From Phaeacidiphilus oryzae TH49 (GTDB lineage Bacteria; Actinomycetota; Actinomycetes; Streptomycetales; Streptomycetaceae), in contig NZ_JQMQ01000005.1 of assembly GCF_000744815.1 (NCBI RefSeq), positions 1,744,055 to 1,808,054 on the forward strand: a stretch of DNA of 64,000 nt. The letters are read 5' to 3'. Below are positions 5,109 through 35,510 of the stretch, piece by piece. The position numbers were made by a program, and so were the translations under genes. The notes below the pieces were generated by a model. It was not told the origin of the DNA. It saw nothing but the letters and a program-made list of their open reading frames with translations, and searched no databases. Within the stretch, counting starts at the first letter, position 1. Every line of letters begins with the position of its first letter.

Positions 5109-5704
5109 TGCCGCAGGGACAGCCGACCACCGTCCCCGAGGACGGGCTGACCACCCGTCAGCGCCGCACCCTCCCCGTGCTGGCCGTCCACACCGGCCCC
5201 GGCAAGGGGAAGTCCACCGCCGCCTTCGGGCTCGCCCTGCGGGCCTGGAACCAGGGCTGGCCGATCGGGGTCTTCCAGTTCGTCAAGTCCGCCAAGTGGA
5301 AGGTCGGCGAGGAGCACGCGCTGCGGGTGCTGGGCGCCAGCGGCGAGGGCGGCACGGTGGACTGGCACAAGATGGGCGAGGGCTGGTCCTGGGTCCAGCG
5401 GAGGATCGAGGACAGCGAGCAGGCCGCGGTGGAGGGCTGGGCGCAGGTCAAGCGCGATCTGGCCGCCGAGACCTACCGCCTCTACGTGCTGGACGAGTTC
5501 ACCTACCCCATGCACTGGGGCTGGATCGACACCCAGGAGGTGCTGGAGGTGCTGGCCGCCCGCCCCGGCAGCCAGCATGTGGTGATCACCGGGCGGAACG
5601 CCCCGCAGCCGCTGGTCGACGCGGCCGACCTGGTCACCGAGATGACCAAGGTCAAGCACCCGATGGACGCCGGCCGCAAGGGCCAGCGCGGGATCGAGTG
5701 GTAG
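5108..5704 (+). CDS. cobO: Cob(I)yrinic acid a,c-diamide adenosyltransferase CobO
   Basis: Transfers the 5'-deoxyadenosyl group of ATP to cobalt in corrinoids (CobA/CobO/BtuR type). It is 198 aa. The P-loop TGPGKGKSTAAFG lies near residues 30-42, followed by QFVKSAKW, the acidic motif LYVLDEFTYPM and the C-terminal MDAGRKGQRGIEW typical of the family. The ATG overlaps the stop of the chelatase gene (TGATG), and the 3' end overlaps the cobB start, so the genes are translationally coupled. Length and motifs match the family, with nothing unusual seen. Confidence 0.96.
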   Translation: MPQGQPTTVPEDGLTTRQRRTLPVLAVHTGPGKGKSTAAFGLALRAWNQGWPIGVFQFVKSAKWKVGEEHALRVLGASGEGGTVDWHKMGEGWSWVQRRIEDSEQAAVEGWAQVKRDLAAETYRLYVLDEFTYPMHWGWIDTQEVLEVLAARPGSQHVVITGRNAPQPLVDAADLVTEMTKVKHPMDAGRKGQRGIEW

Positions 5705-16752: not shown

Positions 16753-19700
16753 ATGACCAATGCGCCGTTGATGCCTGCGACCACAGAGGCGGAGGCTCCC
16801 GTGCCGTCGCCGGTACCGCTGGATCCGCTGATGGACGCGCGGGAGCTGCTCGCGCCCCTGCCCGCCGCGGTCGCCGACGGGCGGCTGCTGGACGCCTATC
16901 TGCTGGCCGCCGGAGCGCTCCAGGTCGGCGAGGACGTCGTCGAGGGCAGCGGCTGGCGGACCAGGCGGCTCCAGGACCACTTCGAGGGCCGGGTGCGGAA
17001 GAGCGCCGAGGGCGCCGGCGGCGCGAAGAGCGGCGGGGCCGCCCGCGGCCTGCCCGCCCAGGCGCTGGCGCTCCCCCTCTCGGCCTCCCGCCGGGTGCTG
17101 GACGGCTGGACGGAGGCGGCGCTGCGCGCCGACCCGGACCGCCGGGCGCTGCGCGGCTGGTGCGCCGCCGTCTCGGTGCTCACCGGCGAGCTGGCCGACC
17201 TGCTGGTCCGGGACGACTGGGCGCGCGAGGACTGGGCCCGCGGCGAGGGGGCGCACGGCGAGGGGACGCGCGGCGACGGCGCCCGCGACGAGGGGGCGCC
17301 CGCGCCCAGCGGGGTCGTCGACCTGACCGAGGTCCAGGACCGCCGCCGGCTGCTGCGCTCGGCCCGCGCGCTGGCCGACTCCCTGGACCGGCTGCCGGCC
17401 GGGGCCGCGCGGCTGCTGGAGGGCGAGATCGTGCGGCAGCCGTCCTGCTTCCGCAGCTTCGACCTCCACCCCGCGGACGCGGTGGAACTGGTCCGCCGGT
17501 TCGCCGACCGGCATCCGGGGCGCGAGCGCCGGCTGCTGGTCGTCGGCGTCCGCACCTCGGGCAGCTATCTCGCGCCCCTGGCCGGCGCCGCGCTGCGCCG
17601 GCTCGGCTACCGGGACGTCACGGTGGCCACCTCGCGGCCGCGCGCGGCCCTGCTGCCCGGCCGGGCGCCGCTGGTCCGCTCGGTGGCGGCGGCGGGCGGC
17701 GCCGTACTGCTGCTGGACGATCCGCCGGTGACCGGCAACGCGGTGGCCACCGTGGCCCGCCGGGCCGAGGAGGCGGGCTTCCCCGCCGACTCCGTCGTCC
17801 CGCTGCTGCCCGTCTTCGGCGACGAGGGCGCGCTTCCCGCGCCGCTGGCCGGGTATCCGTGCGTGCTGCTGCCCGGCCAGGACTGGGAGGTACGGACCCG
17901 ACTGCGGTCCAAGGCGCTGGGCGACGCGGTCGCCGCGCTGCTGCCGCCCGGGGAGCGGGTGCTGGCCGCGACCGCGGGCCCGCAGGGCGAGTTGACCCGG
18001 TGGCGGCATCTCTCGGTGCCGCTGGACGTGCGGGTGGAGGAGCGGTCGCGCCGATCCGGGGGCGCGGGCGGCTCGGGCGGCGGCCCAGGCGGTGCGGGCG
18101 GCTCGGGCGGCTCCTCGGTACGGGTCGAGCACCTGGTGGCGGAGTGGTCGGGTGTAGGCCATCTCGGGCGCCAGGCGGCCGAGTTGGCGGCCGAGCTGGC
18201 GGGGCTCGTGCCGCGGGTGCTGGGCTTCGCCGACGGCGTGCTGCTGCGCGAGCGGCTGCCGCAGGAGCCCGGGCCCGAGGGCTTCCGCGCGCGGGAGCTC
18301 GCCGCGGAGGAGCCGCCGGCGGAGAGCTCGGCCGACACCGCGCCGGCCGAACGGCCGCCCACGGAGCTCTCGTCGGCGGACATCCCGCCGGCCGATCTTC
18401 CGCCGGCCGCCGCGGTGGCCGGCTATGTGGCCGCGCGGGCCCGGCTGCTGTCCGCGCCGGAGGACCGCAGCCTCCGGCTGGCCGCCCGGCAGCCGGTCTG
18501 GGAGGTCGCCGCCCGGCTGCTGGCGCCCGGTTTCGGCCGACTCGGCGGCGCCGCGCGCTCACTGCTGCTGGACCGCGAGGCGCAGCGGCTGCTGGCCGCC
18601 GACGGCACGGCATGCCTGGTGGACGGGCAGATGGCGGACCCCCGGCTGTGGTCGAGGGACGGCCGCGGCGGCTGGCGGAAGACCCGCTGGGCCGACGGCT
18701 CGTTCAGCAACCTCGACCTGGCCAGCTACGACCCCCTCTACGACCTGGCCGGGGCGGCCCTCAACACGCCCGACGGCGGGCGCGAACTCCTCGCCGCCTA
18801 CGCCGAGTCGACCGGTCGCCCGGTCGATCCGGGGCGCTGGTGCCTGCTGGTGCTGGTGCAGGGGTGGAACGCGGTCCGGCTGGCCGGATCCGGTGCGCTG
18901 GACGCCTCGGCCGCGCGCCGCGCCCGGCGGGCGCAGGCCCGGGCCGTGCAGGAGTTCCTGGCCGCGATGTACCTGGCCGACCTGCCGGACCTGCCGGACC
19001 GGCCGCCGGGCCCGGGCGGCGGCAGCGGCGGTTTCTGCGTCCTGGACGTGGACGGCGTGCTGGAGCACGACGTCCTCGGCTTCCCGGCCTCCTCCCCGCT
19101 CGGCGCGCTGGCGCTGCGCGCCCTCCGCGCCCACGGCCACCGGGTGCTGCTGGCCACCGGCCGCTCGGCCCCCGAGGTCGCCGACCGCTGCGCCGCGTAC
19201 GGGATCGACGGCGGAGTGGCCGAGTACGGCGCCGCCGCAGTGACGCCGTCAGGGATCACCGCGCTGGAGGGGGGCGGCGGGGAGCACGGCGGCCACCGCC
19301 GGGAGCGCCTGCGCGCCCGGCTGCGCGCCGCCGTGCCGCAAGTGGCCTTCGACCCCCTCTACCGGTCCTGCGTCCGGGCCTCGCTGCGCGGCCGGGGGCT
19401 GCCCGAGGAGGTGGTCCGGTCGGTGCTCGCCGACAGCGAGTTCGGCGAGTGGTTCACGGTCGTCCGCGGGGACGCCCAGACCGACTTCCTGCCGCGCGGG
19501 GTGGGGAAGACCACCGGACTCCAGGGGTTGCTGGAACGGCTCGGCGCGGACCGGGACACCGTGCCGCTGCTGGCGGTCGGCGACGGCGTGGCGGACGTCC
19601 CGATGCTGCGGCTGGCCCGGCTCGGCCTCGCCCCCGGCAACGCCGAGGCGGCCGTGCGCCGGGCCGGGATCACCCGGCTGCGACGGCAGTACCAGGCCGG

Positions 19701-19974
19701 GCTCGGCGACGCGGTCGCCCATGTCATCGGCCACCGCCCGGGCGGCTGCCCGATCTGCCGCCCGGCCTCGTCGAACTGGTCGCCGGAGGCGGTCCCCGGC
19801 GCGGTGACGGCGTCCCCGGCCGCACGGCTGCTGCTCGGCGTCCTCGCCGTACCCGAGGCCGGCCGGACCGCCGCGCTCGGCAGGATGGCCGCGCTGCTCA
19901 GATCCGCCGGGCCGGCCGACCGCCGGGAGGCGCGGGAGCAGAAGCGACAGGGGCGGCAGGGGCGGCAGGGATGA
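16753..19974 (+). CDS. Three-domain protein: PRTase-like, kinase-like and HAD phosphatase
   Basis: 1,073 aa, cytoplasmic. Domain 1 (about 20-400) looks like a phosphoribosyltransferase fold: SCFRSFDLHPADAVELV, LLVVGVRTSGSYLAPLAG, and a PRPP-loop-like AVLLLDDPPVTGNAVATVA near 322 that retains the Asp pair. Domain 2 (about 440-740) resembles a degenerate APH/small-molecule kinase, with WSGVGHLGRQ and ending WADGSFSNLDLASYDPLYD. Domain 3 (about 760-990) is a HAD hydrolase with LDVDGVLEHD, LLATGRS, GVGKTTGL and VGDGVADVPM. A Cys pair CPICRP follows near 999. Between 1 and 2 is a Gly-rich linker, and 310-365 carries PAE/SADIPPADL-type low complexity within domain 2. It overlaps the next kinase gene as ATGA. 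The pathway is unknown; the architecture suggests making and dephosphorylating a ribosyl- or phospho-sugar intermediate. Confidence 0.75.
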   Translation: MTNAPLMPATTEAEAPVPSPVPLDPLMDARELLAPLPAAVADGRLLDAYLLAAGALQVGEDVVEGSGWRTRRLQDHFEGRVRKSAEGAGGAKSGGAARGLPAQALALPLSASRRVLDGWTEAALRADPDRRALRGWCAAVSVLTGELADLLVRDDWAREDWARGEGAHGEGTRGDGARDEGAPAPSGVVDLTEVQDRRRLLRSARALADSLDRLPAGAARLLEGEIVRQPSCFRSFDLHPADAVELVRRFADRHPGRERRLLVVGVRTSGSYLAPLAGAALRRLGYRDVTVATSRPRAALLPGRAPLVRSVAAAGGAVLLLDDPPVTGNAVATVARRAEEAGFPADSVVPLLPVFGDEGALPAPLAGYPCVLLPGQDWEVRTRLRSKALGDAVAALLPPGERVLAATAGPQGELTRWRHLSVPLDVRVEERSRRSGGAGGSGGGPGGAGGSGGSSVRVEHLVAEWSGVGHLGRQAAELAAELAGLVPRVLGFADGVLLRERLPQEPGPEGFRARELAAEEPPAESSADTAPAERPPTELSSADIPPADLPPAAAVAGYVAARARLLSAPEDRSLRLAARQPVWEVAARLLAPGFGRLGGAARSLLLDREAQRLLAADGTACLVDGQMADPRLWSRDGRGGWRKTRWADGSFSNLDLASYDPLYDLAGAALNTPDGGRELLAAYAESTGRPVDPGRWCLLVLVQGWNAVRLAGSGALDASAARRARRAQARAVQEFLAAMYLADLPDLPDRPPGPGGGSGGFCVLDVDGVLEHDVLGFPASSPLGALALRALRAHGHRVLLATGRSAPEVADRCAAYGIDGGVAEYGAAAVTPSGITALEGGGGEHGGHRRERLRARLRAAVPQVAFDPLYRSCVRASLRGRGLPEEVVRSVLADSEFGEWFTVVRGDAQTDFLPRGVGKTTGLQGLLERLGADRDTVPLLAVGDGVADVPMLRLARLGLAPGNAEAAVRRAGITRLRRQYQAGLGDAVAHVIGHRPGGCPICRPASSNWSPEAVPGAVTASPAARLLLGVLAVPEAGRTAALGRMAALLRSAGPADRREAREQKRQGRQGRQG

Positions 19975-21566
19975 GCGCCGAGACCTCCGCGACACCGGTC
20001 GCCCGGACCGCACCCGCCGCCGCCGACGCCGTCGCCGACGGGGGCACGGCGGCCGACGCCGCTCCGGCCGAGTCGGCCCCGGCGGACGCCGCCTCGGCCG
20101 ATACCGTCACGGGGGACGTCACCTCGGGGGGCGCCGCCCCGGGGGATGCCGCCACGGTCGGCGGGGCGCCGGCCGGCGCAGACCTCCGGGCCGTCCCTGC
20201 GCGGCTCGGCGCTCCGGCCGCCCCGAGCGGCCCGGCCGCCCCGAGCCGCCCGGCCGCCACGAGCGGCTTGGTCGCCGCCGGCGGCCCGGTCGCCACGACC
20301 GTCGCCGGCGGCCCGACCCTCCCGACCGCAGCAGGCGCGCCCGCCGCCGCAGACGCGCCCGCCGGGCCCGAGGGCTCCCTCACCGCCCTCGGTGACCGGA
20401 GGCGGCCGGGTGGCGGGGGCGGCCGGCCCGGCGGGCTGCACGAGCTGGTCTCGGTCGTCCGCGGCCGGCTGCCGATGCTGCCGCCCGCCCTCCTCAGCGC
20501 GCCCCTGGACGAGTTGACGATCCGCCGGGTGGCCTGGCGGCTCGGCCTCGCCGCGCCCGGACGGCCGTCGCGCACCACCGCGGACCTCCTGGTGGCCAGG
20601 GTCGGCTCGCTCGCCCTCAAGTACCCGCTGAGCGACCGGGCCGCCGCCGCGCTGGCCCGCGAGGAGCGGGTGCTCGCCAGGCTCGCCGCGGACGAGCGGC
20701 TGGCCCCGGAGTCCAGGGCGCTGCTCCCACCGGTGCTGCCCCAGTCCGCGCCACCGCGCCCGGCGCCGGTGCCCCTCCCGGACCCCTCGGCCCCCTCGGC
20801 CCCGGACACCGTCCCGCCGCACCCGGCCGGACCGGACGACTCGCTCGCCCGGGCCCTCGGCGGCGGCCCCGCCCTCCTCCAGCACTGGATGCCCGGCCGC
20901 CCGGCCTCGTCCTGCGCTCGCCGCGGCACGGACCCAGCCGAGGACCCGGTGACGGCCGCGGCGCTGGCCGCCGTCGCCCGGATCCACCACTCCACCGGCC
21001 AGGTTCGGCGGGTCACCCAGCCGCTGCTGGACACCTGGCTGTTGCCCGGACTCGCCGAGCTCCGCTCGCAGCTGGGGCCGTGGGCCGGCCCGGGCCTGGC
21101 CGCCCTGGAGAGGCGGCTGCGGACCGGGCTGGTCGACCGCGAGGTGCTCTGCGGCTGGACCCACGGCGACTTCCACCCCGGAAACGTGCTGCTGAGGCCC
21201 GGCGCCTCCGGGCCGGTGGCCACGGCCGTGATCGACTGGGTGCAGGGCTGCCCGGACGGCCCGGCCGCCATCGACGGCTGCATGTACCTGCTGGCCCGGC
21301 GGCACGACTCCACCGGCCGCGAGCTCGGCGCCTGCGTGGTGGACGTGCTGCGCTCGGGCGGGCTCGGCCCCGCCGAGCGGAAGCTGCTCGCCGGCACCGG
21401 TTTCGACGCCCCCGCCTACGGGCCGGACGGCGCTCTGCTGCCGCTGCTCACCTGGCTGTGGCACGTCTCGGGGAACCTCGCCAAGTCGGCCAGGTTCGCC
21501 CGCAGCCACCGCTGGGTGGGGAACAACGTCCGCCCGGTCCTGGAGGCGGTGGTCACCAGCGGGTAG
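19971..21566 (+). CDS. APH-like phosphotransferase
   Basis: 531 aa starting in an ATGA overlap with the PRTase-kinase-HAD gene. Residues 1-150 are Ala/Pro-rich and probably disordered. A kinase-like fold follows: VARVGSLALKYPL (nucleotide-side Lys), GWTHGDFHPGNVLL with the catalytic Asp and metal-binding Asn, and AVIDWVQGCPDGPAAID with the second metal Asp. The C-terminal part has LLTWLWHVSGNLAKSARF. It belongs to the aminoglycoside phosphotransferase/choline kinase superfamily, but nothing here indicates antibiotic resistance. Context suggests phosphorylation of a sugar or small metabolite in the same pathway. The last 14 bp overlap the convergent MBL gene. Confidence 0.82.
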   Translation: MSAETSATPVARTAPAAADAVADGGTAADAAPAESAPADAASADTVTGDVTSGGAAPGDAATVGGAPAGADLRAVPARLGAPAAPSGPAAPSRPAATSGLVAAGGPVATTVAGGPTLPTAAGAPAAADAPAGPEGSLTALGDRRRPGGGGGRPGGLHELVSVVRGRLPMLPPALLSAPLDELTIRRVAWRLGLAAPGRPSRTTADLLVARVGSLALKYPLSDRAAAALAREERVLARLAADERLAPESRALLPPVLPQSAPPRPAPVPLPDPSAPSAPDTVPPHPAGPDDSLARALGGGPALLQHWMPGRPASSCARRGTDPAEDPVTAAALAAVARIHHSTGQVRRVTQPLLDTWLLPGLAELRSQLGPWAGPGLAALERRLRTGLVDREVLCGWTHGDFHPGNVLLRPGASGPVATAVIDWVQGCPDGPAAIDGCMYLLARRHDSTGRELGACVVDVLRSGGLGPAERKLLAGTGFDAPAYGPDGALLPLLTWLWHVSGNLAKSARFARSHRWVGNNVRPVLEAVVTSG

Positions 21567-22458
21567 CGGTGAAGTCGACCGCTCGGAGCCGGAGTTCGCG
21601 GGCACGGGCGGCCAGCGCCCGCATCCGGACGGCCATCTCCGCTGCCGGCAGCCGGCGGCGGTCGCCGTGGCCGGGCAGCAGCCACTCGAAGCGCAGCCGG
21701 TCGGCGACCCTGTTCAGCGAGGCGGCCTGCTCGGTGATCGAGTACCAGGTGACGTTGTCGACCACCTCGATGTCGCCGGTGGCGCGGGACCAGTGGAAGC
21801 TGTCGCCGCTGAAGCAGTAGCGGTCGTCGGCGAGGAAGAGCACGCTGCCCCGGGTGTGGCCGGGCAGCGGAACGGCGGTCACCCCGGCCGCGATCTCGGT
21901 CGGATCGGTGCCCCGCAGCACCCGGTCCGCGTCGGGGGCCGAGTCCAGGTCCCCTTCGTGGATCCACAGCCGGGCGCCGTAGCGGTCGGCGTAGGTGCGG
22001 CCGTGTGCGGCGTGGTCCCGGTGGGTGAGGAGGACGTCGGTGATCGGGCCGGCCGCCGCCTCGTACCGGGCGGCCAGCTCCTCGCTCCAGCGGGGCGTGT
22101 CCACCATCATCGCGGTGCCGTCGGGCCGGCGGAGGAGGTAGGCGTTGGCGGCGGCGGTCCGCGGCGAGTTGTGCCCGCAGAGGTATACCTCGGCCGCCTC
22201 GTCCAGCGGCATCGGGAACGGGTCCAGGTCCCTTCGCAGGCGGCCGCCCGGCGGCCGGATCGACCGGGTGTGGCAGGCGTGCGCCGCCGCGTTCAGCGCC
22301 CGGACCTCGGCGTCCGAGGCCGGCTGGCGCAGCACCCGGGAGCGGCCGTCCGCCTCCCCGATCAGGTCCGGGGCGAACTGCCTGGCCACATCGCAGTTGG
22401 TGCACCTCTCGTCCACGTACCAGCCGTCGGCGCCGGTTCGGTCCTCTTGCACGGTCAC
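21553..22458 (-). CDS. MBL-fold metallohydrolase with ferredoxin-like Cys-rich N terminus
   Basis: 301 aa from GTG 22458 (AAGGGGAAG upstream); a second GTG two codons on is also possible. The N terminus has DERCTNCDVARQFAPD and, later, AAHACHTRSIRP: three or four cysteines spaced as in ferredoxin-like iron-sulfur modules. The metallo-beta-lactamase domain (about 75-290) has LLTHRDHAAHGRTYADRYG (an HxxDH-like metal site in which one expected His appears changed), PLPGHTRGSVLFL, DDRYCFSGDSFHW and LLPGHGDRRRLP. It is likely a cytoplasmic hydrolase or redox-coupled enzyme with unknown substrate. It ends 14 bp inside the convergent kinase gene. Confidence 0.85.
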   Translation of the reverse strand: MTVQEDRTGADGWYVDERCTNCDVARQFAPDLIGEADGRSRVLRQPASDAEVRALNAAAHACHTRSIRPPGGRLRRDLDPFPMPLDEAAEVYLCGHNSPRTAAANAYLLRRPDGTAMMVDTPRWSEELAARYEAAAGPITDVLLTHRDHAAHGRTYADRYGARLWIHEGDLDSAPDADRVLRGTDPTEIAAGVTAVPLPGHTRGSVLFLADDRYCFSGDSFHWSRATGDIEVVDNVTWYSITEQAASLNRVADRLRFEWLLPGHGDRRRLPAAEMAVRMRALAARARELRLRAVDFTATRW

Positions 22459-22607
22459 GGTCTTCCCCTTCGTGATGCCACTCCCCTCAGGGGTAACCGA
22501 CCGCACGCGAACAAAGGAAGAGGCCCAGCCCTTGTGCTTCCGGCGGGGGGACGCTCTGGGCTCCGCGCGTCCGGCCGCCGCGGCGCGCCAACCCGCCTCG
22601 CCCCGCC

Positions 22608-23462
22608 TCATCCCGCGAAGGCGGGGCCCTTCACCGCCGTGCGGAGGCGGCGGTACGCGCGCCAGGCGACCGTGCGCGGCCGGTCGGGGAAGGGCGCGAC
22701 CGGGGCCGCCCGGCCGTCCAGCCAGGCGGTGAGGTCGTCGAGGGTGTGCTCGCAGTTCAGCATCAGCCTGCTGATCCGGTACGGCTCGTCCTCCGCCGAG
22801 CTCAGCGCGTTGCGGACGGCCACGGCCGAGGTGTAGCCGGCCGCGGCGACCTGGCGGCGGACCCGCCGGCTGCTGTAGCCGTGCGGATAGGCGAAGGCCG
22901 GGACCTCCTCGCCCAGCACGTCCTCCAGCACCTTCTTCGGCTCGGCGAGTTCGCGGGCCACGGCGCCCGAGCCGAGGGTGTCCAGCTGCGGATGGGTGAT
23001 CGTGTGCGCCCCGACCTCGAGGCCGCAGTCGGTCAGGTCGCCCACCTGACCCAGCGTCATCATGGGTGCGGGGGGCAGCAGTTGAGCCCGGTCCCGGCTG
23101 CCGTCCAGGGCGCCGGTGGTGAGGTAGGCGGTGCCGGTGAGGCCGCGCTCGGCCATCGCGGGGGCGGTGAACGCGGGCAGATCGGCGAAGCCGTCGTCGA
23201 TGGTGATGACGATGGGGTTCTCCGGCAGTCCGGCCGAGCCGGGCTCGGCCAGGCCGCGCACCAGCCGGCTGGCGGTGATCGCGGTGTGCCCGCTGTCCGC
23301 GATGGCGTCCAGCTGGGCGGCGAAGTCCTTGGGGCGGACCGTGTACCGGGCGATCCAGGACGGCGGATCGTCCATCACCGCGTGGTAGAGCAGCACCGGG
23401 ATCGGTCGCCGGACCGCCGTACCCCGCCCAGCCTGTCCGTCGTCCCGCCCGTCACCGCTCAC
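22608..23462 (-). CDS. Polysaccharide deacetylase (NodB/CE4 domain)
   Basis: 284 aa from GTG 23462, preceded by GGAGGA and overlapping the flippase end by 11 bp. CE4 motifs: IPVLLYHAVMDDPP, IVITIDDGFADLPAFTAP (metal Asp pair), VGAHTITHPQLD (metal histidines) and FAYPHGYSSRRVRRQV. It is paralogous to the deacetylase at 14412-15263. There is no obvious signal peptide. It is the last gene of a five-gene minus-strand operon starting at 29174 (GT2, GT2, PRTase-like, flippase, deacetylase), so it probably trims acetyl groups from the polymer made by that operon. Confidence 0.9.
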   Translation of the reverse strand: MSGDGRDDGQAGRGTAVRRPIPVLLYHAVMDDPPSWIARYTVRPKDFAAQLDAIADSGHTAITASRLVRGLAEPGSAGLPENPIVITIDDGFADLPAFTAPAMAERGLTGTAYLTTGALDGSRDRAQLLPPAPMMTLGQVGDLTDCGLEVGAHTITHPQLDTLGSGAVARELAEPKKVLEDVLGEEVPAFAYPHGYSSRRVRRQVAAAGYTSAVAVRNALSSAEDEPYRISRLMLNCEHTLDDLTAWLDGRAAPVAPFPDRPRTVAWRAYRRLRTAVKGPAFAG

Positions 23463-25374
23463 GCTGGTTCCTCCTCGCCGCCACCAGTTCATCGTTCAGC
23501 GCCCAACTGGGCCTGGCGCTCGACCTCTTGCGTCGCCGCGCGGGCGGTCGCCCGCGCTCGGCGCGGTCGCCGGTGAGCTCGGGCTGCGGCGCCGGCCGGG
23601 CCTGCCCGGGCGGCAGGGCGCCGGCCCGGAGGTGCTCGCGCTCGTGCTCGTGCCCGTGCTCGCGCCCGTGCTCAGGACCGGTGGCGCCCGGGCCGCGCCC
23701 GGCGGCGCCGGAAAGACCTGCCCCTGCCTCCGCCCCGGCCACGCGGCCGGTCGCCCGGCCCGCCGCAGCGCCGGGCCCTCCGCCGGCGGCGGCGCCCGCC
23801 GCGGGCCCGCGGCGGAGGGCCTGCCGGATCCCGCGCAGAACGCCCTGCGCACGGGCCCCGGTCCGGGCGCCCGCGCCAGCGCCGAGCACCGCCCCGGCGC
23901 CCCCACCGGAACCCGCGTCACGACCCGCCGCTCCCAGCCCCGCCGCGGCCCCGCCGCGTCGTCCGCGGACCTCCGCGTACGGACCGGCCGGCATCGCGCT
24001 CGCGCCGTCCGCCGGCAGCCAGGTCCTGCGCAGCAGCACCAGCGCGCCCGCCATCAGGAGCTGGGCGGTGAGCCAGGCCAGGCCCATCCCGCTCAGTCCG
24101 AACCGGGGGACGTACAGCACGGCGAAGCCGAAGACCATGAGGGAGACGGTGATGTAGATGGCCATCACCATCCCGGCCCGCCGCTGCACCCGGGCCGCCG
24201 CCAGCGCGGTGGCCATCACCAGGTTGGGCACGGTGGACAGGGCCAGCAGCCGCAGCAGCGTGGTGGCGTGCTCGGGGTAGTCCTCGCCGAACACCCGCAG
24301 CACCAGCGGCGCGGCCAGCACCAGCACCGCGGCCGCCCCCACCAGCAGTCCGCCGGTGTGCCTGAGGACGGTCCTGGCGGCGCTGCCCAGCCGGGCCAGG
24401 TCGCCGGCCGACTCGACCACGATGGACGCCCCCATGTTGGTGCTCACCACCATCAGCATGGTGGTGATCACCCAGCTGATGGAGAAGAACGCCGAGTCCC
24501 GCGGGCCCAGCGTGTTGAGCAGCAGCACCTGCGGCAGCGTCGAGGCGCCCAGCCAGAACAGCCCGCCGAAGTAGGTGAGGGCGGTGAACCGGACGACCCC
24601 GTCGGGGCTCTCGGTGCGCACCGCGAGCGCGCCGGTGACGTCGTCCGGCCGCGGGTCGCGGGCCCAGGAGGGCCGGCGGGCGTAGCGGCTGGCCTCGCGC
24701 ACCCGCCGGGGCACGGCGAAGCCGAAGAGGTAGGTGTTGGTGAAGGCCAGCGAGAAGAGGAGGGCCACCACCCAGGACAGCATGATCCCGGCGCCCCCCG
24801 CGCTCGCCAGCATGAACACCGCGACCAGTTTGACCACCGAGAACAGCGCGTTCTCGACCAGTACCCAGGTCGGCCGGCGCAGCCCGGTGAGCGCCCCGTC
24901 CTGCACCACGAAGATCGCGTAGCTCACGGTGGCCAGGACGAACGCCGGGCCCATGAAACGGGTGTGAAGGAACATCAGCCCCGGCGACACCCACGGGATG
25001 AGGAAGACGAAGACCGTCCCGGTGATCAGCGCCACCACGACCGAGGCCAGGTAGGCGTTGCCGATGATCCGCTTGGTGCGGGTGCCGGCCGAGGGGACGA
25101 AACGGATCAGCACGTCGGAGAGGTTGAGCTGGGAGACGCCGGCGAGGAAGGTCATCATCGAGATCGCCGAGTAGTTCCGGCCGACCGTGGACACCTCGTA
25201 GCGCAGCCCCGCGAGCGACCAGTACGCCGCGCCGAGCACCGAGGTGGCCAGCGCGGCGGCGGTCAGGAGTACGCCGTTCCGCAGCAGCGGATCGCCGCCG
25301 AGGAACCGGCCGACCAGCGGCAGGGCGGCGAGCCGCGCGGTGAACCTCGCCGAGCGGGTCTCCTCCTGCCTCAT
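23452..25374 (-). CDS. Wzx-type polysaccharide flippase (MATE/MVF superfamily) with long disordered tail
   Basis: 640 aa. ATG 25374 is preferred over GTG one codon earlier because GGAGG lies 7 bp upstream. Residues 1-450 contain about 12 hydrophobic helices and the pattern of oligosaccharide flippases, including LAGVSQLNLSDVLIRFVPS, YAIFVVQDGALTGLRRP and MGASIVVESAGDLARLG. It would move a lipid-linked glycan across the membrane. From about residue 455 the protein is low complexity: Gly/Ala-rich, then a His/Glu run EHGREHGHEHEREH, then a basic stretch RRRKRSS. The tail is unusual for the family and may bind metal or a partner. The start overlaps the stop of the PRTase-like gene (TGATG). Confidence 0.88.
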   Translation of the reverse strand: MRQEETRSARFTARLAALPLVGRFLGGDPLLRNGVLLTAAALATSVLGAAYWSLAGLRYEVSTVGRNYSAISMMTFLAGVSQLNLSDVLIRFVPSAGTRTKRIIGNAYLASVVVALITGTVFVFLIPWVSPGLMFLHTRFMGPAFVLATVSYAIFVVQDGALTGLRRPTWVLVENALFSVVKLVAVFMLASAGGAGIMLSWVVALLFSLAFTNTYLFGFAVPRRVREASRYARRPSWARDPRPDDVTGALAVRTESPDGVVRFTALTYFGGLFWLGASTLPQVLLLNTLGPRDSAFFSISWVITTMLMVVSTNMGASIVVESAGDLARLGSAARTVLRHTGGLLVGAAAVLVLAAPLVLRVFGEDYPEHATTLLRLLALSTVPNLVMATALAAARVQRRAGMVMAIYITVSLMVFGFAVLYVPRFGLSGMGLAWLTAQLLMAGALVLLRRTWLPADGASAMPAGPYAEVRGRRGGAAAGLGAAGRDAGSGGGAGAVLGAGAGARTGARAQGVLRGIRQALRRGPAAGAAAGGGPGAAAGRATGRVAGAEAGAGLSGAAGRGPGATGPEHGREHGHEHEREHLRAGALPPGQARPAPQPELTGDRAERGRPPARRRKRSSARPSWALNDELVAARRNQRER

Positions 25375-26966
25375 CACGCCCCTCCGTCCGCTGCTCCGCC
25401 CCCGCCGTCGCCGGCGTCCGCGTCCAGGCCCCGTGGGCTCTCGGCCGAGAGCTCGCTGGGGTTCCCGGCGGCCTCACCCCCCGCGGCGTCACCCCCGGCG
25501 GACCCGTCCGCCCGCCCGCCTCCATTCTCGGTCGGGGAACTGTCGGGTCCAGCACCGATCGCGTCGTTTTCGGACCTCTCGGAGTCGGATCCGGCCGTCT
25601 TCTCGTCCTCCTCCGGATCCTCCTCCGGCAGCCCGCTGATCAGGACGCCGTGGACCACCCCGCGCGGCGGCGGACCGGCCCCCGGCCGGCGGCCGAGGTA
25701 GCCGACGCCGGCGCCCTCGGCCCGCAGGGCGAGCCTCCGCTCCCGGCCGGCCGGGTCCGCGACCACGGCGGTGAAGTCGACCGACCGGTGCGAGCGCCGC
25801 CAGCCCGTCCCCCGGCCACGCGCCGACCGGGCGGCGGCGCCGGCGCCGTCGGCCGGGGCGTCGGCCTCGGCCTCGGCCTCCTCTTCGCCCGCCGTCACCA
25901 CCGACCTGACGGTGTGTCCGGCCGGCAGCAGTTCGCCCAGCGCCTCGGCCAGCGCCGGCGGGCGGAGCAGCTCCGCGATCCGCCACTGCCCGGCCGGCAG
26001 CACGATCGGCTTGTGATGGCGCAGCAGCGCGAGGGGCGTCTCGTCGTCCGCCAGCGACGGGTACATCGGCACCACCCGCTCGGGCGCGAACCCGGCCGCG
26101 GTCAGCCGGCCGGCCACCGAGGCCAGCGAGCCGCCCGTGCGGGGCGGGGCGGCGATCAGCAGCACGAGGCCGCCGACCCGGCGCACCGACTCCGGCAGCC
26201 TCGGCTCCTCCGGCAGGATCGGCCCGCCGGCGCAGGTGGTCCTGGCCACCACGTGCCGGTACTCCAGCTGCGAGAGGGCGGCCGCGGCCAACGGGGCGAG
26301 GTAGGCCCCGGACGATCGCAACCCCAGTACCAGCAGCGGGCGTTCGCGGTCCGGGTACTGGTCGGCGAAGCGCTCGGCGAGCGACAGCACGTCCATCGGA
26401 TGGAGGTCGAGGTCGCGGAACGAGGACGGCGGGCGCAGCGTACTGCCCGCCAGCAGCCGGGCGGCCTGCGGCGGGATCCCGGAGCGGAGCCCGTCCACCG
26501 CGGTGGCCACGGAGAGCAGCACACCGCGGGCGTCCGGCCCGTCGGCCTCCGGCTGATAGTCCCGCAGCACCGCCTCGGCCAGCACATTGGCCAGGTCGCG
26601 CAGCGTCACATGCCATTCGGCCAGCCCCAGCCGGCCCTTGGCGGCGGCCGAGCCGGCGGCCACCGCGTCCAGCGCGCGCAGGGCGATGCCGCGCGGGGCG
26701 GAGAGCGGCGCGCCGGTGGCCCCGGTGCCGGCCAGCACCGCCCGGTGGATCCGGCGGATCTCGCCGTCGGCGCCCTGCAGCCGGTCGGCGACGATCTGGG
26801 CGGCGCCGGCCGCGTTGAGGAAGGCGTCCAGCGGACGGCCCGCGTCGGCGGCGGCGACCAGGCGTTCCAGCACGATGTGGAGTTCCGCCCGGGCGGTCGG
26901 CGCCGGCCTGCGGAGCAGGGCCGCGATCGGGGGCGCGAACGGAGCCGACTGCTGATCAGTTGCCAT
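25374..26966 (-). CDS. PRTase-like protein with degenerate PRPP loop (paralogue of 16753-19974 N-terminus)
   Basis: 530 aa. Residues 1-345 align by eye with domain 1 of the 16753 protein: PPSSFRDLDLHPMDVLSL, LLVLGLRSSGAYLAPLAA and VLLIAAPPRTGGSLASVAG. In that last motif, near residue 268, the acidic pair seen in the paralogue (LLLDDPPVTG) is replaced by Ala-Ala, so PRPP binding or catalysis is doubtful. A short stretch GAGVGYLGRRPG near 415 matches the beginning of the paralogue's kinase-like domain, then the sequence dissolves into an acidic, Gly-rich tail. It thus looks like a truncated paralogue, perhaps a regulatory or scaffold partner. It overlaps the GT2 gene upstream by 11 bp and the flippase downstream by 1 bp. 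Confidence 0.75.
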   Translation of the reverse strand: MATDQQSAPFAPPIAALLRRPAPTARAELHIVLERLVAAADAGRPLDAFLNAAGAAQIVADRLQGADGEIRRIHRAVLAGTGATGAPLSAPRGIALRALDAVAAGSAAAKGRLGLAEWHVTLRDLANVLAEAVLRDYQPEADGPDARGVLLSVATAVDGLRSGIPPQAARLLAGSTLRPPSSFRDLDLHPMDVLSLAERFADQYPDRERPLLVLGLRSSGAYLAPLAAAALSQLEYRHVVARTTCAGGPILPEEPRLPESVRRVGGLVLLIAAPPRTGGSLASVAGRLTAAGFAPERVVPMYPSLADDETPLALLRHHKPIVLPAGQWRIAELLRPPALAEALGELLPAGHTVRSVVTAGEEEAEAEADAPADGAGAAARSARGRGTGWRRSHRSVDFTAVVADPAGRERRLALRAEGAGVGYLGRRPGAGPPPRGVVHGVLISGLPEEDPEEDEKTAGSDSERSENDAIGAGPDSSPTENGGGRADGSAGGDAAGGEAAGNPSELSAESPRGLDADAGDGGGGAADGGA

Positions 26967-28362
26967 TGCGGGGTGCCTCCCAGGGGAGCGGCAGGCCGCG
27001 GACGGTGCGGCGGCTGCGCAGGTAACCGATGGGCCCGTAGAGCAGTCCGCGGCGTTCCAGCCGGGTCAGCCGGGCGGGCCAGAAATCCGGGTCGCCGGCC
27101 GCGTCCTCGGGCGCGGCCTCGGCGGTGGCGGTGCGGGCCAGGGCGTAGCGGACCCCGCCGGGCAGCCTGCGGAGCAGGGCCGGCAGCATCCGGGGTTCGC
27201 GCAGCGCGGCGGCCGTGAGGTAGGCGCCGAGGCCCGCTCCGTAGCCGAAGGCCTGGTTGTCCAGGTCCTCCTGGCGCTCCCGGTGGTGGTGCCAGACCAG
27301 CGCCTCCGGCTGGTACGCCAGGGCGTGCCCGGCGACGATGATCCGGAAGAAGCCGATCAGGTCGTCGCCGCCGCGGGCCGCCGTACCGGTGCCGGTGGCC
27401 GGGTCGAAGCCGCCGATCCCGCGCAGCGCGTCGGCCCGGAAGGCCATGTTGGCCCCCGAGCCCAACCTGCCCGCGGTGAACGGGAAGAGCGGGTCGTCGG
27501 CGGGCGGTTCGGCGAGCGAGTAGCGGCGCGGGACGAAGCCCTTGGCGAAGCCGCCGTGCGCCTCCAGCGAGGCCTGCGCCGGGGTGTCCAGCCGGGCGGG
27601 CAGGATCAGACCGGTGACGCAGGCGATGTCGGGGCCGGCCGCGAAGGCCTCGGCGAGGGCGCTCGCCCAGCGGACGTCGACCACCACGTCGTCGTCGGTG
27701 AAGGCGAGCACCTCTCCGAGGGCCTCCGCGAGCCCGCGGTTGTGGGCGGCGGCGAGTCCGGGCACGGGCTCCCGGACGTACCGGGCCAGCTCGGCGTAGC
27801 GCTCCTTGACCAGCCGCTCGGTGGCGTCGGTCGCGGGGGCGTTGTCGACCACCACGACCTCGTACCGGGGGTGGTCCAGGGCCGCCAGCGAATCCAGGCA
27901 GCGGGCCAGCAGCGCGGGCCGCTCGCGGGTCGCGATCACCACACTGAGCAGGGGCGTCGACGCAGCGTCGACCTTCCTCCGCAGTCTGGCGACCGAACCG
28001 GCGCCGGCGTCGGGACAGGCCGCCCGGGCGGCGGCGAGGAGCGCCCCGGCCGGGTCGTCGGCCGGGAGGACGGTCTGCACCATCCCGACCGGCCGTCCGT
28101 CCGAGCGCACCACCGCCAGCGTCTCGCCGGGGCCCAGCGGCCGGTCGTCGCCCGCCGCGCGGCGGGCGCGGGCGGCCGACTCCTCGGGTCCGCCGCCCAG
28201 TTCGACCTCGGCCACCGCGATCGGCACCTTCCGCGGATCGATCCGCACCTCCGCCGAGGCGGCCCCCGGCAGTGCGGCGCCGCCCGCGGCGATGTCGGCC
28301 TCGGCGGCGCCCGCGGCACCGCCGGCGCCGGGCGCGGACGCCGCGTCGGACGGCGCGGTCAT
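26956..28362 (-). CDS. GT2 family glycosyltransferase with N-terminal extension
   Basis: 468 aa. Residues 1-45 are Ala/Gly-rich. A small domain (about 45-120, with GETLAVVRSDGRPVGMVQ) precedes the GT2 catalytic domain: LLSVVIATRERPALLARCL, VVVVDNAPATDATE, VPGLAAAHNRGLAEALGE, metal site AFTDDDVVVD near 222, and GSGANMAFRADALRGIGGF. The variable C-terminal side has LAYQPEALVWHHHRERQ, a HHH motif common in this GT2 subgroup. The ATG is in an ATGA overlap with the preceding GT2 gene. Likely a cytoplasmic sugar transferase acting before flippase export; donor and acceptor unknown. Confidence 0.88.
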   Translation of the reverse strand: MTAPSDAASAPGAGGAAGAAEADIAAGGAALPGAASAEVRIDPRKVPIAVAEVELGGGPEESAARARRAAGDDRPLGPGETLAVVRSDGRPVGMVQTVLPADDPAGALLAAARAACPDAGAGSVARLRRKVDAASTPLLSVVIATRERPALLARCLDSLAALDHPRYEVVVVDNAPATDATERLVKERYAELARYVREPVPGLAAAHNRGLAEALGEVLAFTDDDVVVDVRWASALAEAFAAGPDIACVTGLILPARLDTPAQASLEAHGGFAKGFVPRRYSLAEPPADDPLFPFTAGRLGSGANMAFRADALRGIGGFDPATGTGTAARGGDDLIGFFRIIVAGHALAYQPEALVWHHHRERQEDLDNQAFGYGAGLGAYLTAAALREPRMLPALLRRLPGGVRYALARTATAEAAPEDAAGDPDFWPARLTRLERRGLLYGPIGYLRSRRTVRGLPLPWEAPRNGN

Positions 28363-29174
28363 CCCGCCGCCTCCGCGGGGACGGTCCGGCCGCGGTGCTC
28401 ACGCAGCAGTGTGCGCAGCACCCGCTGGCCGTCCCGGAAGGTGCGGAGGTTGGACTGGCCGGTGCGGCGCGGGAGTTCCAGCGTCGGCACCTCCGCCACC
28501 CGCAGCCCGCCCAGCAGCGCCCGGACCACCATCTCGGTCTCGATCTCGAATCCGGTGGACTGGAGGTCGAGCCGGTCCAGCGCGTCCCGCCGGAACGCGA
28601 TGAAGCCGTAGCAGAGGTCGGTGAGGGTGCTCTGGTACATCACATTGGTGAGCGCCAGCAGTGCCCTGTTGCCCAGCCGGCGGACGGTGGTGATGTCCAG
28701 TGACCCGCCGCCGCCCATGAAGCGGGACCCCTTGACGAAGTCGTAGCCGTTCTCCAGGAAGTGGACGTAGCGCGGGATCTCGCGGGGCGACATCGAACCG
28801 TCCGCGTCGATCATCACGATGTAGTCGCCCTTGGCCTCCGTGAAGCCGGTGCGCAGAGCGGAGCCCTTGCCCTGGCCGTGCTGGGCGACCACCCGGACGC
28901 CGGGCAGCGAGGCCCGGGCCATCTCCAGGGTGGCGTCGGTGGAGTCGCCGTCGACCAGGATCACCTCGTCGACGCAGTCCGGCATCCGGCTGAGCACCCA
29001 GCCCACGTTGGCCGCCTCGTTGCGGGCCGGGACGATCACGGTGACCGTCCCGGTGCCGACCACGGGACGGGGCTCGCGCTCCGGCAGCGGCGGCTCGGCG
29101 AGGACGGCTGTGGCGACGCCACCGCCCGCGCTTTCGGGCGCACGCAGCAACCGATCGGTTTCGGGTACGTTCAT
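28359..29174 (-). CDS. GT2 glycosyltransferase (dolichyl-phosphate mannose synthase-like)
   Basis: 271 aa from ATG 29174, with AGGTG upstream; an in-frame start 32 codons earlier lacks a good ribosome site. Motifs: VTVIVPARNEAANVGWVL, VILVDGDSTDATLEMA, GKGSALRTGFTEAKGD, metal site VMIDADGSMSPREIP and DLCYGFIAFRRDALDRL. This is the DPM1/polyprenyl-phosphate sugar synthase pattern without C-terminal transmembrane helices. It probably charges a polyprenyl phosphate or starts the chain. It is the first gene of the minus-strand operon ending with the deacetylase at 22608. Confidence 0.9.
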   Translation of the reverse strand: MNVPETDRLLRAPESAGGGVATAVLAEPPLPEREPRPVVGTGTVTVIVPARNEAANVGWVLSRMPDCVDEVILVDGDSTDATLEMARASLPGVRVVAQHGQGKGSALRTGFTEAKGDYIVMIDADGSMSPREIPRYVHFLENGYDFVKGSRFMGGGGSLDITTVRRLGNRALLALTNVMYQSTLTDLCYGFIAFRRDALDRLDLQSTGFEIETEMVVRALLGGLRVAEVPTLELPRRTGQSNLRTFRDGQRVLRTLLREHRGRTVPAEAAG

Positions 29175-29668
29175 GACAGCACCTCTGTTCCCCCCACACG
29201 GCCTGAGCCGTGAACTCCACGGCAATGCTTCAACGCATATGCCGCGCCTCGCATGTATCGCGTGTCGCACCTATTGCATGTACAGGGCCAAGAATTCGCA
29301 GGATCGCTCGTTCGGCCGGACGATCAGCCGACCCACGACCGTCCCGGCGCGCCGACGATCCCCCATGGCGCCGCCGCGGGACGTGCCGAACCGGCCGACG
29401 GCATGCGAGACATCCCCCCGAGCCCCCTGCTCCGCCACGTCAACCCCCCTGCGGCAGCCACGACTTGAACCTCCGCCAGCCCCCCTGAGACCAGCGTACG
29501 GCGGTTCGCATCGGTGGTTTCACCCAGAACGTTACCGTCCACCCGAAGCCGACGAAAGCGATTCTCGCAATCCGGCGACTACACCAGTCAATCCAGGCAC
29601 GTTCACAAAAGAAACATCAAAATCCGTCCTTGTTGCGCAGGTTGGCACAGTTTGCAAAAGCGCCTTCT
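29175..29668. other. Intergenic promoter region of the minus-strand glycan operon
   Basis: About 490 bp, visibly less GC-rich than neighbouring genes, upstream of the GT2 gene starting at 29174. It should hold the promoter for the five-gene operon, but no confident -35/-10 pair was recognised. Short repeats around GCAT and TGCATG occur near 29230-29285. No coding frame here looks real. Confidence 0.45.
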
Positions 29669-33597: not shown

Positions 33598-33795
33598 GCC
33601 ACAAAACCACACACGGCGGCAATGACGAGGAAGTCCGGTGCAAATCCGGCGCGGTCCCGCCACTGTCACCGGGGAGCGCACCCCACCCACGCGCCACGGC
33701 TGCCTCGCGCAGCTGGAAGGCCGGGGGCGCGCGTCGATCCGGAAGCCAGGAGACTCCGGCCGCCGTCACTTCGACCCGGGGCGAGGACCCCGAGT
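33598..33795 (+). ncRNA. Cobalamin riboswitch
   Basis: About 200-nt leader aptamer that binds adenosylcobalamin and turns down the downstream genes. The conserved core GGAAGTCCGGTGCAAATCC (from 33629) continues into GGCGCGGTCCCGCCACTGT (to 33666). The second conserved element GGAAGCCAGGAGACTC is at 33741-33756. Both are near-consensus. The 5' limit is set by the predicted start site and the 3' limit is approximate. It lies about 75 bp upstream of cobI, so control may be by sequestering the translation start of cobI or of the small coupled frame before it. Confidence 0.93.
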
Positions 33796-33808
33796 GAGGA
33801 TCACCGCC

Positions 33809-33874
33809 ATGCCGCGCTGCCCCCTGTCCGCAGCACCCCCCTTCCCCGACTCGGACGAGCGGGCGCGCGGATGA
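33809..33874 (+). CDS. Possible 21-aa leader peptide coupled to cobI
   Basis: A short frame, MPRCPLSAAPPFPDSDERARG, starts 8 bp after a GAGGA purine run. It ends with TGA overlapping the cobI ATG (GGATGACG). It sits directly between the riboswitch and cobI. Its translation would bring ribosomes to cobI, so a riboswitch acting here would control cobI by coupling. It resembles no known protein and may be fortuitous. Confidence 0.3.
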   Translation: MPRCPLSAAPPFPDSDERARG

Positions 33875-34629
33875 CGCCGCGTCTGATCGGCCTGGGCATG
33901 GGGCCCGGCGATCCCGATCTGGTCACCGTCAAGGCAGTCCGGGTGCTGCGCACCGCCCACGCCGTCGTGGTCCCGGTACTGGACACCGGCGAGCGCGGCC
34001 GCGCCGAGGCCACCGTGCTGCACCACGCACCGGACGCCGAGGTGGTGCGCACCGTCTTCGCGCTCAACGAGCGGACCGACCGGGCCCGCCGCGAGGCCGC
34101 CTGGGACGCCGCCGCCGCCCGGGTCGTCGCCCTCCTCACCGGCGACGGAGCCGGGGACGGCGCCGAGCGCGGGGACCGGACGGTGGCCTTCGCCACCATC
34201 GGCGACCCCAACGTCTATTCGACCTTCACCTACCTCGCCCAGACCGTCCGCGGACTGCTTCCCGAGGTGGCGGTGGAGACCGTGCCGGGGATCACCGCGA
34301 TGCAGGACCTGGCCGCCCGCAGCGGCACGGTCCTCGCCGAGGGCACCGAGCCGGTGACCCTGGTCCCGGCCACCGCCGACGGCTCGGTGCTGCGCGAGGC
34401 GCTCGCCGGCACCGGAACCGTGGTCGCCTACAAGTTCGGCCGGATCGCCCCGCAGGTGCGGGCGGCGCTGGAGAAGTCCGGCCGGGACGGGACCGCCGTC
34501 CACGGCTCGGCGCTCGGTCTCCCGGACGAGCGGGTCTCCGCCCCCGGGGAGCCGCTGCCCGACGTCCTGCCGTATCTCTCCACCCTGATCGCCCCCGCAC
34601 CGCGCACCGCCCGTGGAGGAAAGCTGTGA
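33871..34629 (+). CDS. cobI: Precorrin-2 C20-methyltransferase CobI/CbiL
   Basis: SAM-dependent methylation of C-20 of (cobalt-)precorrin-2. It is 252 aa, a tetrapyrrole methylase with RLIGLGMGPGDPDLVTVKA at the N terminus, TIGDPNVYSTFTYLAQTV, TVPGITAMQDLAARSG and YKFGRIAPQVRAALE, all typical of CobI. It is the first gene of the riboswitch-controlled operon. The ATG 33871 overlaps the end of a possible leader peptide, and the 3' end overlaps cobM as GTGA. Confidence 0.95.
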   Translation: MTPRLIGLGMGPGDPDLVTVKAVRVLRTAHAVVVPVLDTGERGRAEATVLHHAPDAEVVRTVFALNERTDRARREAAWDAAAARVVALLTGDGAGDGAERGDRTVAFATIGDPNVYSTFTYLAQTVRGLLPEVAVETVPGITAMQDLAARSGTVLAEGTEPVTLVPATADGSVLREALAGTGTVVAYKFGRIAPQVRAALEKSGRDGTAVHGSALGLPDERVSAPGEPLPDVLPYLSTLIAPAPRTARGGKL

Positions 34630-35489
34630 CCGCCGCCGACGACGCCCGCACCGCTGACACTCCCGCCGCCGCCGGGGCTCCCGCCGCCGCGAAGGTCACC
34701 TTCGTCGGGGCCGGCCCGGGCGCGCCCGACCTGCTGACCTTCCGCGCCGCCCAGGCCATCGCCGAGGCGGACGTGGTGATCTGGGCGGCCAGCCTGGTCC
34801 ATGAGGACGTCCTGCGACACGCCCGCGAGGGTGCCGAGATCGTCGACTCCTCGCTGGTCCCGATGGAGGCCGTCCTCGACCTCTACGCCCGTGCGGTGGC
34901 CGAGAACCTGCGGGTGGCCCGGGTGCACTCCGGCGACCCCTCGCTCTGGGGCGCCGTCCAGGAGCAGCTGGACCACTGCACCGCGCTCGGCCTGGAGACC
35001 GAGATCGTGCCCGGCGTCTCGTCCTTCTCCGCGGTCGCCGCGCTGGCCAAGCGGGAGTTGACGATCCCCGAGGTGGCGCAGTCGGTGGTGCTGACCCGGC
35101 TGGGCGGCGGCAAGACGCCGATGCCGCCGGGCGAGGAGGTCCGCGAGTTCGCCCGGCACGGCACCACCATGGCGGTCTTCCTCTCCGCGGCCCGCTCCAA
35201 GCAGCTCGCCGAGGAGCTGCGGGAGGGCGGCTACCCGGAGGACACCCCGGTGGTCATCGCGTACCAGGCCACCTGGCCGGACGAGTTGCTGCTGCGCTGC
35301 ACGCTGGGGACGCTGGAGGAGACGGTCAAGGAGCACCGGCTCTGGAAGCACACCCTCTTCCTGGTCGGCCCGGCGCTCTCGGCCTCCGGCACCCGCTCGC
35401 ACCTCTACCACCCGGGCCACTTCCACACCTTCCGCCGCGCCGACCCGGGCGCCCGCCGCCGCCTGCGTGCCGAGCACGCCGAGCACTGA
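34626..35489 (+). CDS. cobM: Precorrin-4 C11-methyltransferase CobM/CbiF
   Basis: SAM-dependent C-11 methylation. It is 287 aa from GTG 34626, with GGAGGAAAG upstream and a GTGA overlap with cobI. After a 20-residue Ala-rich extension: KVTFVGAGPGAPDLLTFRA, VVIWAASLVHEDVL, VHSGDPSLWGAVQEQLD, VPGVSSFSAVAALAKREL and SAARSKQLAEELREGGY, matching the CobM/CbiF family. Identification is secure. Confidence 0.95.
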   Translation: MTAADDARTADTPAAAGAPAAAKVTFVGAGPGAPDLLTFRAAQAIAEADVVIWAASLVHEDVLRHAREGAEIVDSSLVPMEAVLDLYARAVAENLRVARVHSGDPSLWGAVQEQLDHCTALGLETEIVPGVSSFSAVAALAKRELTIPEVAQSVVLTRLGGGKTPMPPGEEVREFARHGTTMAVFLSAARSKQLAEELREGGYPEDTPVVIAYQATWPDELLLRCTLGTLEETVKEHRLWKHTLFLVGPALSASGTRSHLYHPGHFHTFRRADPGARRRLRAEHAEH

Positions 35490-35510
35490 CCGGCCTGGTA
35501 CGACAGCCCC

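Follow-up and report, generated by a model that had tools for sequence, protein, structure and literature searches.

A shortened pseudo-phosphoribosyltransferase overlaps glycosyltransferase genes in putative exopolysaccharide clusters of Phaeacidiphilus oryzae and its relatives

Type I phosphoribosyltransferases (PRTases; Pfam family PF00156, including PyrR, OPRT, HPRT and PurF) hold phosphoribosyl pyrophosphate (PRPP) and metal by means of a pair of adjacent acidic residues. We report here on a PRTase-like protein that lacks this pair, encoded in a 64,000-nucleotide stretch of the genome of Phaeacidiphilus oryzae TH49, which we refer to as the window. The gene occupies positions 25374-26966 on the minus strand and specifies 530 amino acids from an ATG start (the short form); a paralogue of 1073 amino acids, encoded at 16753-19974 on the plus strand (the long form), keeps the pair. 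The long form resembles type I PRTases in its fold match and in a PRPP motif with DD. The short form is homologous to the long form and keeps the pyrophosphate-loop block RS[SC]G in 7 of the 12 copies that we collected, but it differs from type I PRTases in having neither the acidic pair nor any Pfam match at E ≤ 0.1 (11 of the 12 copies scanned).

The nearest described case that we found, judging from the passages of the article that deal with it, is APRT2 of Trypanosoma brucei, a PRTase paralogue without detectable activity that stands beside the active APRT1 (PMC8836349). In the same passages APRT2 is described as keeping its PRPP motif with DD (VLIVDDFIGTGST), and no active APRT1:APRT2 heterodimer formed (PMC8836349). 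In the short form, by contrast, DD is lost, an active paralogue is often absent and a glycosyltransferase gene is tied to it. Recurrent pseudoenzymes have also been described for PRPP synthetase in a preprint and are proposed there to act on the retained active enzyme (PMC13252144); the short form differs from these as well, being without DD, often without an active paralogue and tied to a glycosyltransferase gene. It seems to be rare for a PRTase-fold pseudoenzyme that has lost the acidic pair for PRPP to be conserved where an active paralogue is absent, and a full-text literature search found nothing like this case in the article excerpts that it returned.

Proteins of the PRTase_2 family (PF15609) are part of tellurium-resistance-associated operons. 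Their loop reads DDE-x-STG in the members aligned, and the window locus likewise has HAD and ATP-grasp-like parts. As a parent family PRTase_2 was rejected, with no match at E ≤ 1 in either window protein and an hhalign probability under 1%; the genome contains two weak PF15609 matches, both outside the window. Butirosin is ribosylated in two steps by a PRTase and a phosphatase (BtrL/BtrP), a scheme on which our literature search returned nothing. The long form likewise combines a PRTase domain with a HAD phosphatase-like one, but does so in one polypeptide with an extra domain and in a polysaccharide-type cluster. A literature search on tellurium-type PRTase/ATP-grasp/HAD operons and on Streptacidiphilus exopolysaccharide returned nothing usable.

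Sequence, tree and synteny together identify the 25374 protein as a pseudo-PRTase, the truncated descendant of a PRTase–middle-domain–HAD enzyme of exopolysaccharide-type clusters. The two window proteins share 36% identity over 377 columns (E 7e-42 in a single BLASTP comparison), and in a whole-genome search with the 25374 protein its paralogue was the sole other match at E ≤ 1 (E 2.4e-39). The shared blocks and the change of the loop from DDPPVTGN to AAPPRTGG, on which the original prediction was built, are present as written: DLDLHP, GLRSSGAYLAPL (residues 215-226), IAAPPRTGGS (271-280) and GVGYLGR in the short form correspond to FDLHP, GVRTSGSYLAPL, LDDPPVTGNA and GVGHLGR in the long form. 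Similarity exceeds these blocks, beginning near residue 30 and extending, in multiple alignments, into the remnant of the domain that follows the PRTase. The short-form protein consists of a helical N-terminal part, a PRTase-like core (residues ~176-352), a middle-domain remnant (~393-444) and a low-complexity acidic tail. The equivalent of its PRPP loop, I-AAPPRTGG, is encoded at 26130-26156 (minus strand); residues 272-273 (codons 26148-26153) are AA, so the loop lacks the adjacent acidic pair of the PRPP-loop pattern D-D-x-x-x-T/S-G, and from this loss we infer that the short form carries out no PRPP chemistry. The pyrophosphate-loop equivalent, GLRSSGAYLAP (26292-26324, minus strand), is kept. 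In the long form the PRPP loop LDDPPVTGN (17713-17739, plus strand) has the acidic pair intact at residues 322-323. The short-form open reading frame (ORF) has no internal stop across 530 codons and a strong coding bias (GC content at third codon positions 0.93), as in real genes here. Its product gave a single chance-level Pfam match (Chorion, E 0.25), no match in NCBIfam, PHROGs or PADLOC, and none in a direct PDB sequence search.

Matches were obtained in 17 of the 121 genomes sampled from the family, with the best 27 or fewer first-look candidates scored per genome, and in 12 of the 14 species searched in the genus of G073, which includes Streptacidiphilus records. In this genus search, as in the search with the middle-plus-HAD part of the long form, all first-look candidates were scored; the scan of genome contigs confirmed at least three loci and is no census. 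A class-wide sample of 148 genomes, queried with the long PRTase plus middle domain, returned the window's genome alone among the best 10 or fewer candidates per genome, which is no measure of rarity outside the family. The short form is present in 12 genomes, namely the window's own and 11 of the 14 G073-genus species. The genomes that supplied the 11 long forms are the window's; G065, G077, G085 and G101, which also have a short form; G093, of the same genus as G073; G026, G064 and G092 of genus g14; and G044 and G047 of genus g21, one of them matching an Actinospica record.

All 11 long forms have D-D or D-E as the acidic pair, and both acids are kept in none of the 12 short forms, where the first position is A, G or S (D once) and the second A or G. 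The loss proposed from the window copy holds in every short-form genome, one of them with a single D; orthologues do not regularly keep the pair. The pyrophosphate-loop block is RSSG or RSCG in the seven copies mentioned above and RPEG in the other five. One of the 12 copies, from Streptacidiphilus sp. 4-A2 (L036 and L064 are the same record), is frame-broken. Several cluster genes of this record have broken matches, probably through assembly error, and its copy was therefore used only in part: its core row begins with a few out-of-frame residues in the alignment behind the acidic-pair and invariant-column counts and in analysis A11, it was left out of analysis A9 and of the overlap count given below, its earlier part was blanked in the tree (L064), and structure jobs on the short form took it from about residue 180 onward (L036). 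For L061, L065, L066 and L067 the longest ORF was used, which includes an upstream extension.

The long form is composed of N-terminal helices, a type I PRTase domain (residues ~228-400), a middle domain (~405-750) and a HAD-IIB phosphatase-like domain (~757-991). Its predicted identity as a type I PRTase, already proposed from the loop, is firm when the sequence and model evidence is combined. Only some parts of its AlphaFold model are good (mean predicted local distance difference test score, pLDDT, 58; ten-residue blocks of residues 241-390 mostly 67-91). When 995 Foldseek chains were re-aligned to it with VIA-align, residues ~234-376 matched type I PRTases over some 120-135 residues (PyrR up to Z 11.5, APRT 11.2, PurF 10.5, HPRT 10.2), and residues ~757-991 matched HAD-IIB chains with Z up to 11.8. 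In the Foldseek search itself HAD phosphatases ranked top, four of them at E ≤ 0.001, and PRTases lower. A profile of the 11 long PRTase domains had 11 PDB matches at E ≤ 1, eight of which are PyrR or orotate PRTases; these are weak (E 0.037-0.42), and the DD of the PRPP loop is aligned in the three alignments shown. PF00156 is matched by one of the 11 long forms (E 4.3e-4); the 16753 protein itself has no match to it at E ≤ 1 and hence lies below the curated cut-off. For the HAD part, PF08282 scores 42.6 bits in the 16753 protein against a cut-off of 20.9, and it is found at E ≤ 0.1 in 10 of the 11 long forms.

A distant protein of G088 (L076:8517-10547) provides a bridge to PF00156, which it matches at E 6.8e-6 and 25.9 bits, just under the curated cut-off of 26.3. 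It consists of PRTase and middle domain with VDDPPLTG intact and no HAD match in the Pfam scan, and aligns with a long form across both domains (E 1e-9). This weak match was counted neither as a short nor as a long form. Its neighbours are, by eye only, methyltransferase-like and radical-SAM-like genes; the PRTase–middle module is thus found outside polysaccharide clusters.

Judging from their domain content, PRPP is probably a substrate of the long relatives: 5-phosphoribose would pass from it to an acceptor by way of the PRTase domain, after which the phosphate would be removed by the fused HAD domain, an order of events suggested by the presence of both domains in one protein. The fusion is also a starting point in the search for a possible phosphoribosylation step in polysaccharides of actinobacteria. 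The middle domain had been described as kinase-like, for which Pfam and PDB sequences offer no support: no kinase family is among the Pfam matches of the 11 long forms at E ≤ 0.1, there is no PDB sequence match at E ≤ 5, and hhalign against the adjoining APH-family homologue gave a probability under 1% in an alignment padded by long ORF extensions. The APH-type kinase homologue is a separate gene that adjoins the long form (19971-21566, plus strand; PF01636, E 6.3e-10). Ten other long-form loci were read, and seven of them have a homologue of this gene (L014, L015, L070, L071, L072, L074 and L075); none was found in L073, L069 runs into a contig end past the long gene, and L007 consists of a 3.3-kb contig.

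In a tree calculated without the motif columns, short and long forms lie on opposite sides of a branch with 100/100 support; the short form is therefore an old lineage rather than a recent copy of the 16753 gene. The long form is likely the ancestral state, because short forms carry a middle-domain remnant, the G088 protein combines PRTase and middle domain, and a long form occupies the same slot in L015. There it lies between a GT2 gene and a membrane-protein gene, the position held by the short form elsewhere, and its longest ORF overlaps the GT2 ORF by 8 nucleotides. The remnant is present in 5 of the 12 short forms (the window and L061-L064) and lost in seven; for two of the five, alignment with the long form extends to the GFADGVLL block of the latter. 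That the short form descends from a longer protein, as had been read from the trace GVGYLGR, is borne out by this remnant of the next domain.

The original prediction went further and took an active and an inactive paralogue in one locus to suggest a hetero-complex, whose inactive subunit would regulate or structure the active one. The two genes do lie in one cluster here, 5.4 kb apart, their products are homologous, and in trypanosomes active paralogues can be activated by inactive partners, called "prozymes", according to the relevant passages of PMC8836349. However, the genes are on opposite strands, and in 7 of the 12 short-form genomes the middle-plus-HAD part of the long form had no match at E ≤ 1e-5, nor was there a second PRTase match at E ≤ 1e-6 (G097, one of the seven, is only 76% complete). 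In four of the other five (G065, G077, G085 and G101) the long form is on a different contig from the short form, in a second glycosylation cluster, so that the window's genome is the only one with both in one locus. Moreover, in all 11 loci checked the gene that the short form overlaps encodes a glycosyltransferase. The data do not support the hetero-complex as a general model, and we consider it unlikely.

In the window this glycosyltransferase is a GT2 protein encoded directly upstream of the pseudo-PRTase (26956-28362, minus strand; PF00535, E 3.8e-23), the end of whose gene overlaps the short form from its ATG by 11 nucleotides (26956-26966). Across the 11 loci the overlap between the ATG and the end of the upstream ORF is 11 nucleotides in six, where the upstream gene is a GT2 of the 26956 type, and 8 nucleotides in five, where it is a GT2 resembling AglJ. 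The short-form ATG is the sole ATG near the junction in each of them, and the arrangement suggests translational coupling. On the downstream side, the longest ORF of a membrane protein, with a GTG start, overlaps the short-form stop by 4 nucleotides. The five loci with the AglJ-like overlap (L012 and L065-L068) represent a second version of the cluster: their pyrophosphate loop reads RPEG, the membrane protein is distant (~30% identity) and no 26956-type GT2 hit is found in that slot.

The reading that we favour, at about even odds, is that the 25374 protein is a non-catalytic accessory subunit, derived from a PRTase, of polyprenol-linked sugar-assembly enzymes, rather than a catalyst. The short form arose from a type I PRTase domain through loss of the acidic pair that binds PRPP and metal and through shortening of the protein; it would be made together with the upstream glycosyltransferase by way of the overlapping genes; and by binding either the glycosyltransferase or a phosphorylated ligand, its PRTase fold would tune or scaffold sugar transfer. 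More tentatively, a PRTase-fold lineage may have abandoned PRPP chemistry and ended as a fixed subunit, translationally coupled, of the glycosyltransferases responsible for polyprenol-linked exopolysaccharide, with a newly conserved charged signature of LPEE, PPRTG and HVV-x-R replacing the old active site; this more specific proposal is possible, if somewhat short of probable. If true, glycosyl transfer, rather than a partner PRTase, would be the target of this PRTase pseudoenzyme.

Alternatively, the 25374 protein could still be an enzyme, of altered chemistry, in which a new site, for example the LPEE pair together with PPRTG, would bind metal or another phosphorylated sugar and catalyse a PRPP-independent step. 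Both Glu residues of LPEE (26205-26216, minus strand) are invariant in all 12 short forms and unconserved in long forms, and the loop residue after PP is R in 10 of the 12 and H in one. Constraint on the core is strong: 37 of its 155 positions are invariant only in short forms, among them E253 and E254 of LPEE, H238, R242, R262, R263, R297 and Y302, compared with 18 that are invariant only in long forms (all 11). Because divergence among the short forms is lower than among the 11 long ones, this contrast alone would overstate the constraint; the fair count, matched at an equal mean identity of 0.64, is 52 of 155 invariant columns for the 12 short forms and 41 of 155 for nine long forms. Against altered chemistry stand the pyrophosphate loop, which has become RPEG in 5 of the 12, and a short-form model too poor to place the residues; moreover, we know of no catalytic precedent for the LPEE and PPRTG layout. 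We view this alternative as rather unlikely.

The core of the short form is under purifying selection. The ratio of nonsynonymous to synonymous substitution rates (dN/dS) in the core is 0.07-0.53 for 17 pairs inside three short groups and 0.24-0.32 for seven pairs of two long groups, and in the N-terminal part it is 0.09-0.68 (short) and 0.31-0.69 (long). These region-limited values cover 11 of the 12 short and 6 of the 11 long forms and were obtained by a method without codon-bias correction; whole-row values include the upstream ORF extensions of L061, L065, L066 and L067. The short form of the window is 67% identical to its G073 orthologue, and the corresponding values for neighbouring proteins span this figure (GT2 61%, membrane protein 64%, deacetylase 68%, AglJ-like GT2 83%). 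Eleven of the 12 copies are open throughout, the twelfth coming from the assembly that has breaks in several genes. All three results argue against a decaying leftover, kept merely by its position inside a translationally coupled operon, which would account for the erosion of the C-terminus (the middle-domain remnant persisting in five copies and gone in seven), for the low-complexity tail of the window copy and for its high-end dN/dS. A decaying gene is unlikely, and retention by position alone quite improbable.

Several observations weigh against a PRTase-derived accessory subunit. By homology to the long form, the 25374 protein is expected to have a PRTase fold; structure prediction, which according to the original prediction should give this fold for both proteins, did so for the long form (Z ~10-11.5) and left the short form undecided. 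Its AlphaFold model, built from five sequences, is weak (pLDDT 63), its Z scores of 5.7-6.2 against PRTases are tied with those against RNase J and other folds, Foldseek returned nothing at E ≤ 0.001, and a PDB profile search with the short forms gave three unrelated weak matches and no PRTase. Even for the long model the best PRTase in the Foldseek search, an HPRT, is weak (E 0.042, probability 0.99). The short form of G101 retains one Asp. The highest dN/dS values, reaching 0.53 in the core and 0.68 in the N-terminal part, occur in the group of the window protein, and the whole-row values of the window copy, 0.62-0.70, are at the high end. Another in-frame GTG or TTG lies near the short-form ATG in 9 of the 11 loci, which makes the start codons an inferred feature of the overlap. 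A physical complex with the glycosyltransferase is only suggested, by coupling and synteny.

The genomes surveyed form a natural control set: seven have the pseudo-form with no long form found, four have both in separate clusters and four of the same family have a long form alone. The idea of a dead PRTase serving a glycosyltransferase is therefore directly testable by gene deletion.

The gene for the AglJ-like protein, which resembles polyprenyl-phosphate-sugar synthases at scores below curated cut-offs, lies at 28359-29270 (minus strand) in the window. It is the best conserved glycosylation gene, with 81-84% identity over ~211-219 amino acids in 10 of the 11 short-form loci and 67% over a longer stretch in L066. 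The membrane protein (23452-25377, minus strand) has nine hydrophobic segments by a simple hydropathy count and no family hit; it may, in our own reading, be flippase-like. Further cluster genes encode more GT2 proteins, polysaccharide deacetylases, a flavoprotein and an ATP-grasp-like protein, the last being weak for the window copy and matched by PF02786 at E 4.6e-6 for the L013 homologue. Pfam finds a GH26 hydrolase in the L062 cluster, and similar ORFs were recognized by eye in L011, L013 and L063. This gene content would fit an exopolysaccharide locus.

In the window, the segment 16753-22611, with the long form, the APH kinase gene and the gene for a metallo-beta-lactamase protein, stands in the position of the GH26-like gene that lies beside the deacetylase gene in L011, L013, L062 and L063, as if by cassette exchange. 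The metallo-beta-lactamase-fold protein at its edge (21553-22611) is fused to a ferredoxin-type 4Fe-4S domain (PF13370 and PF00753) and had no homologue in the other loci searched. Cobalamin genes flank the cluster, of the CobO type on one side and tetrapyrrole methylases with CbiD on the other (window positions 4037-5704 and 33622-38329), and they flank the short-form cluster in other genomes too.

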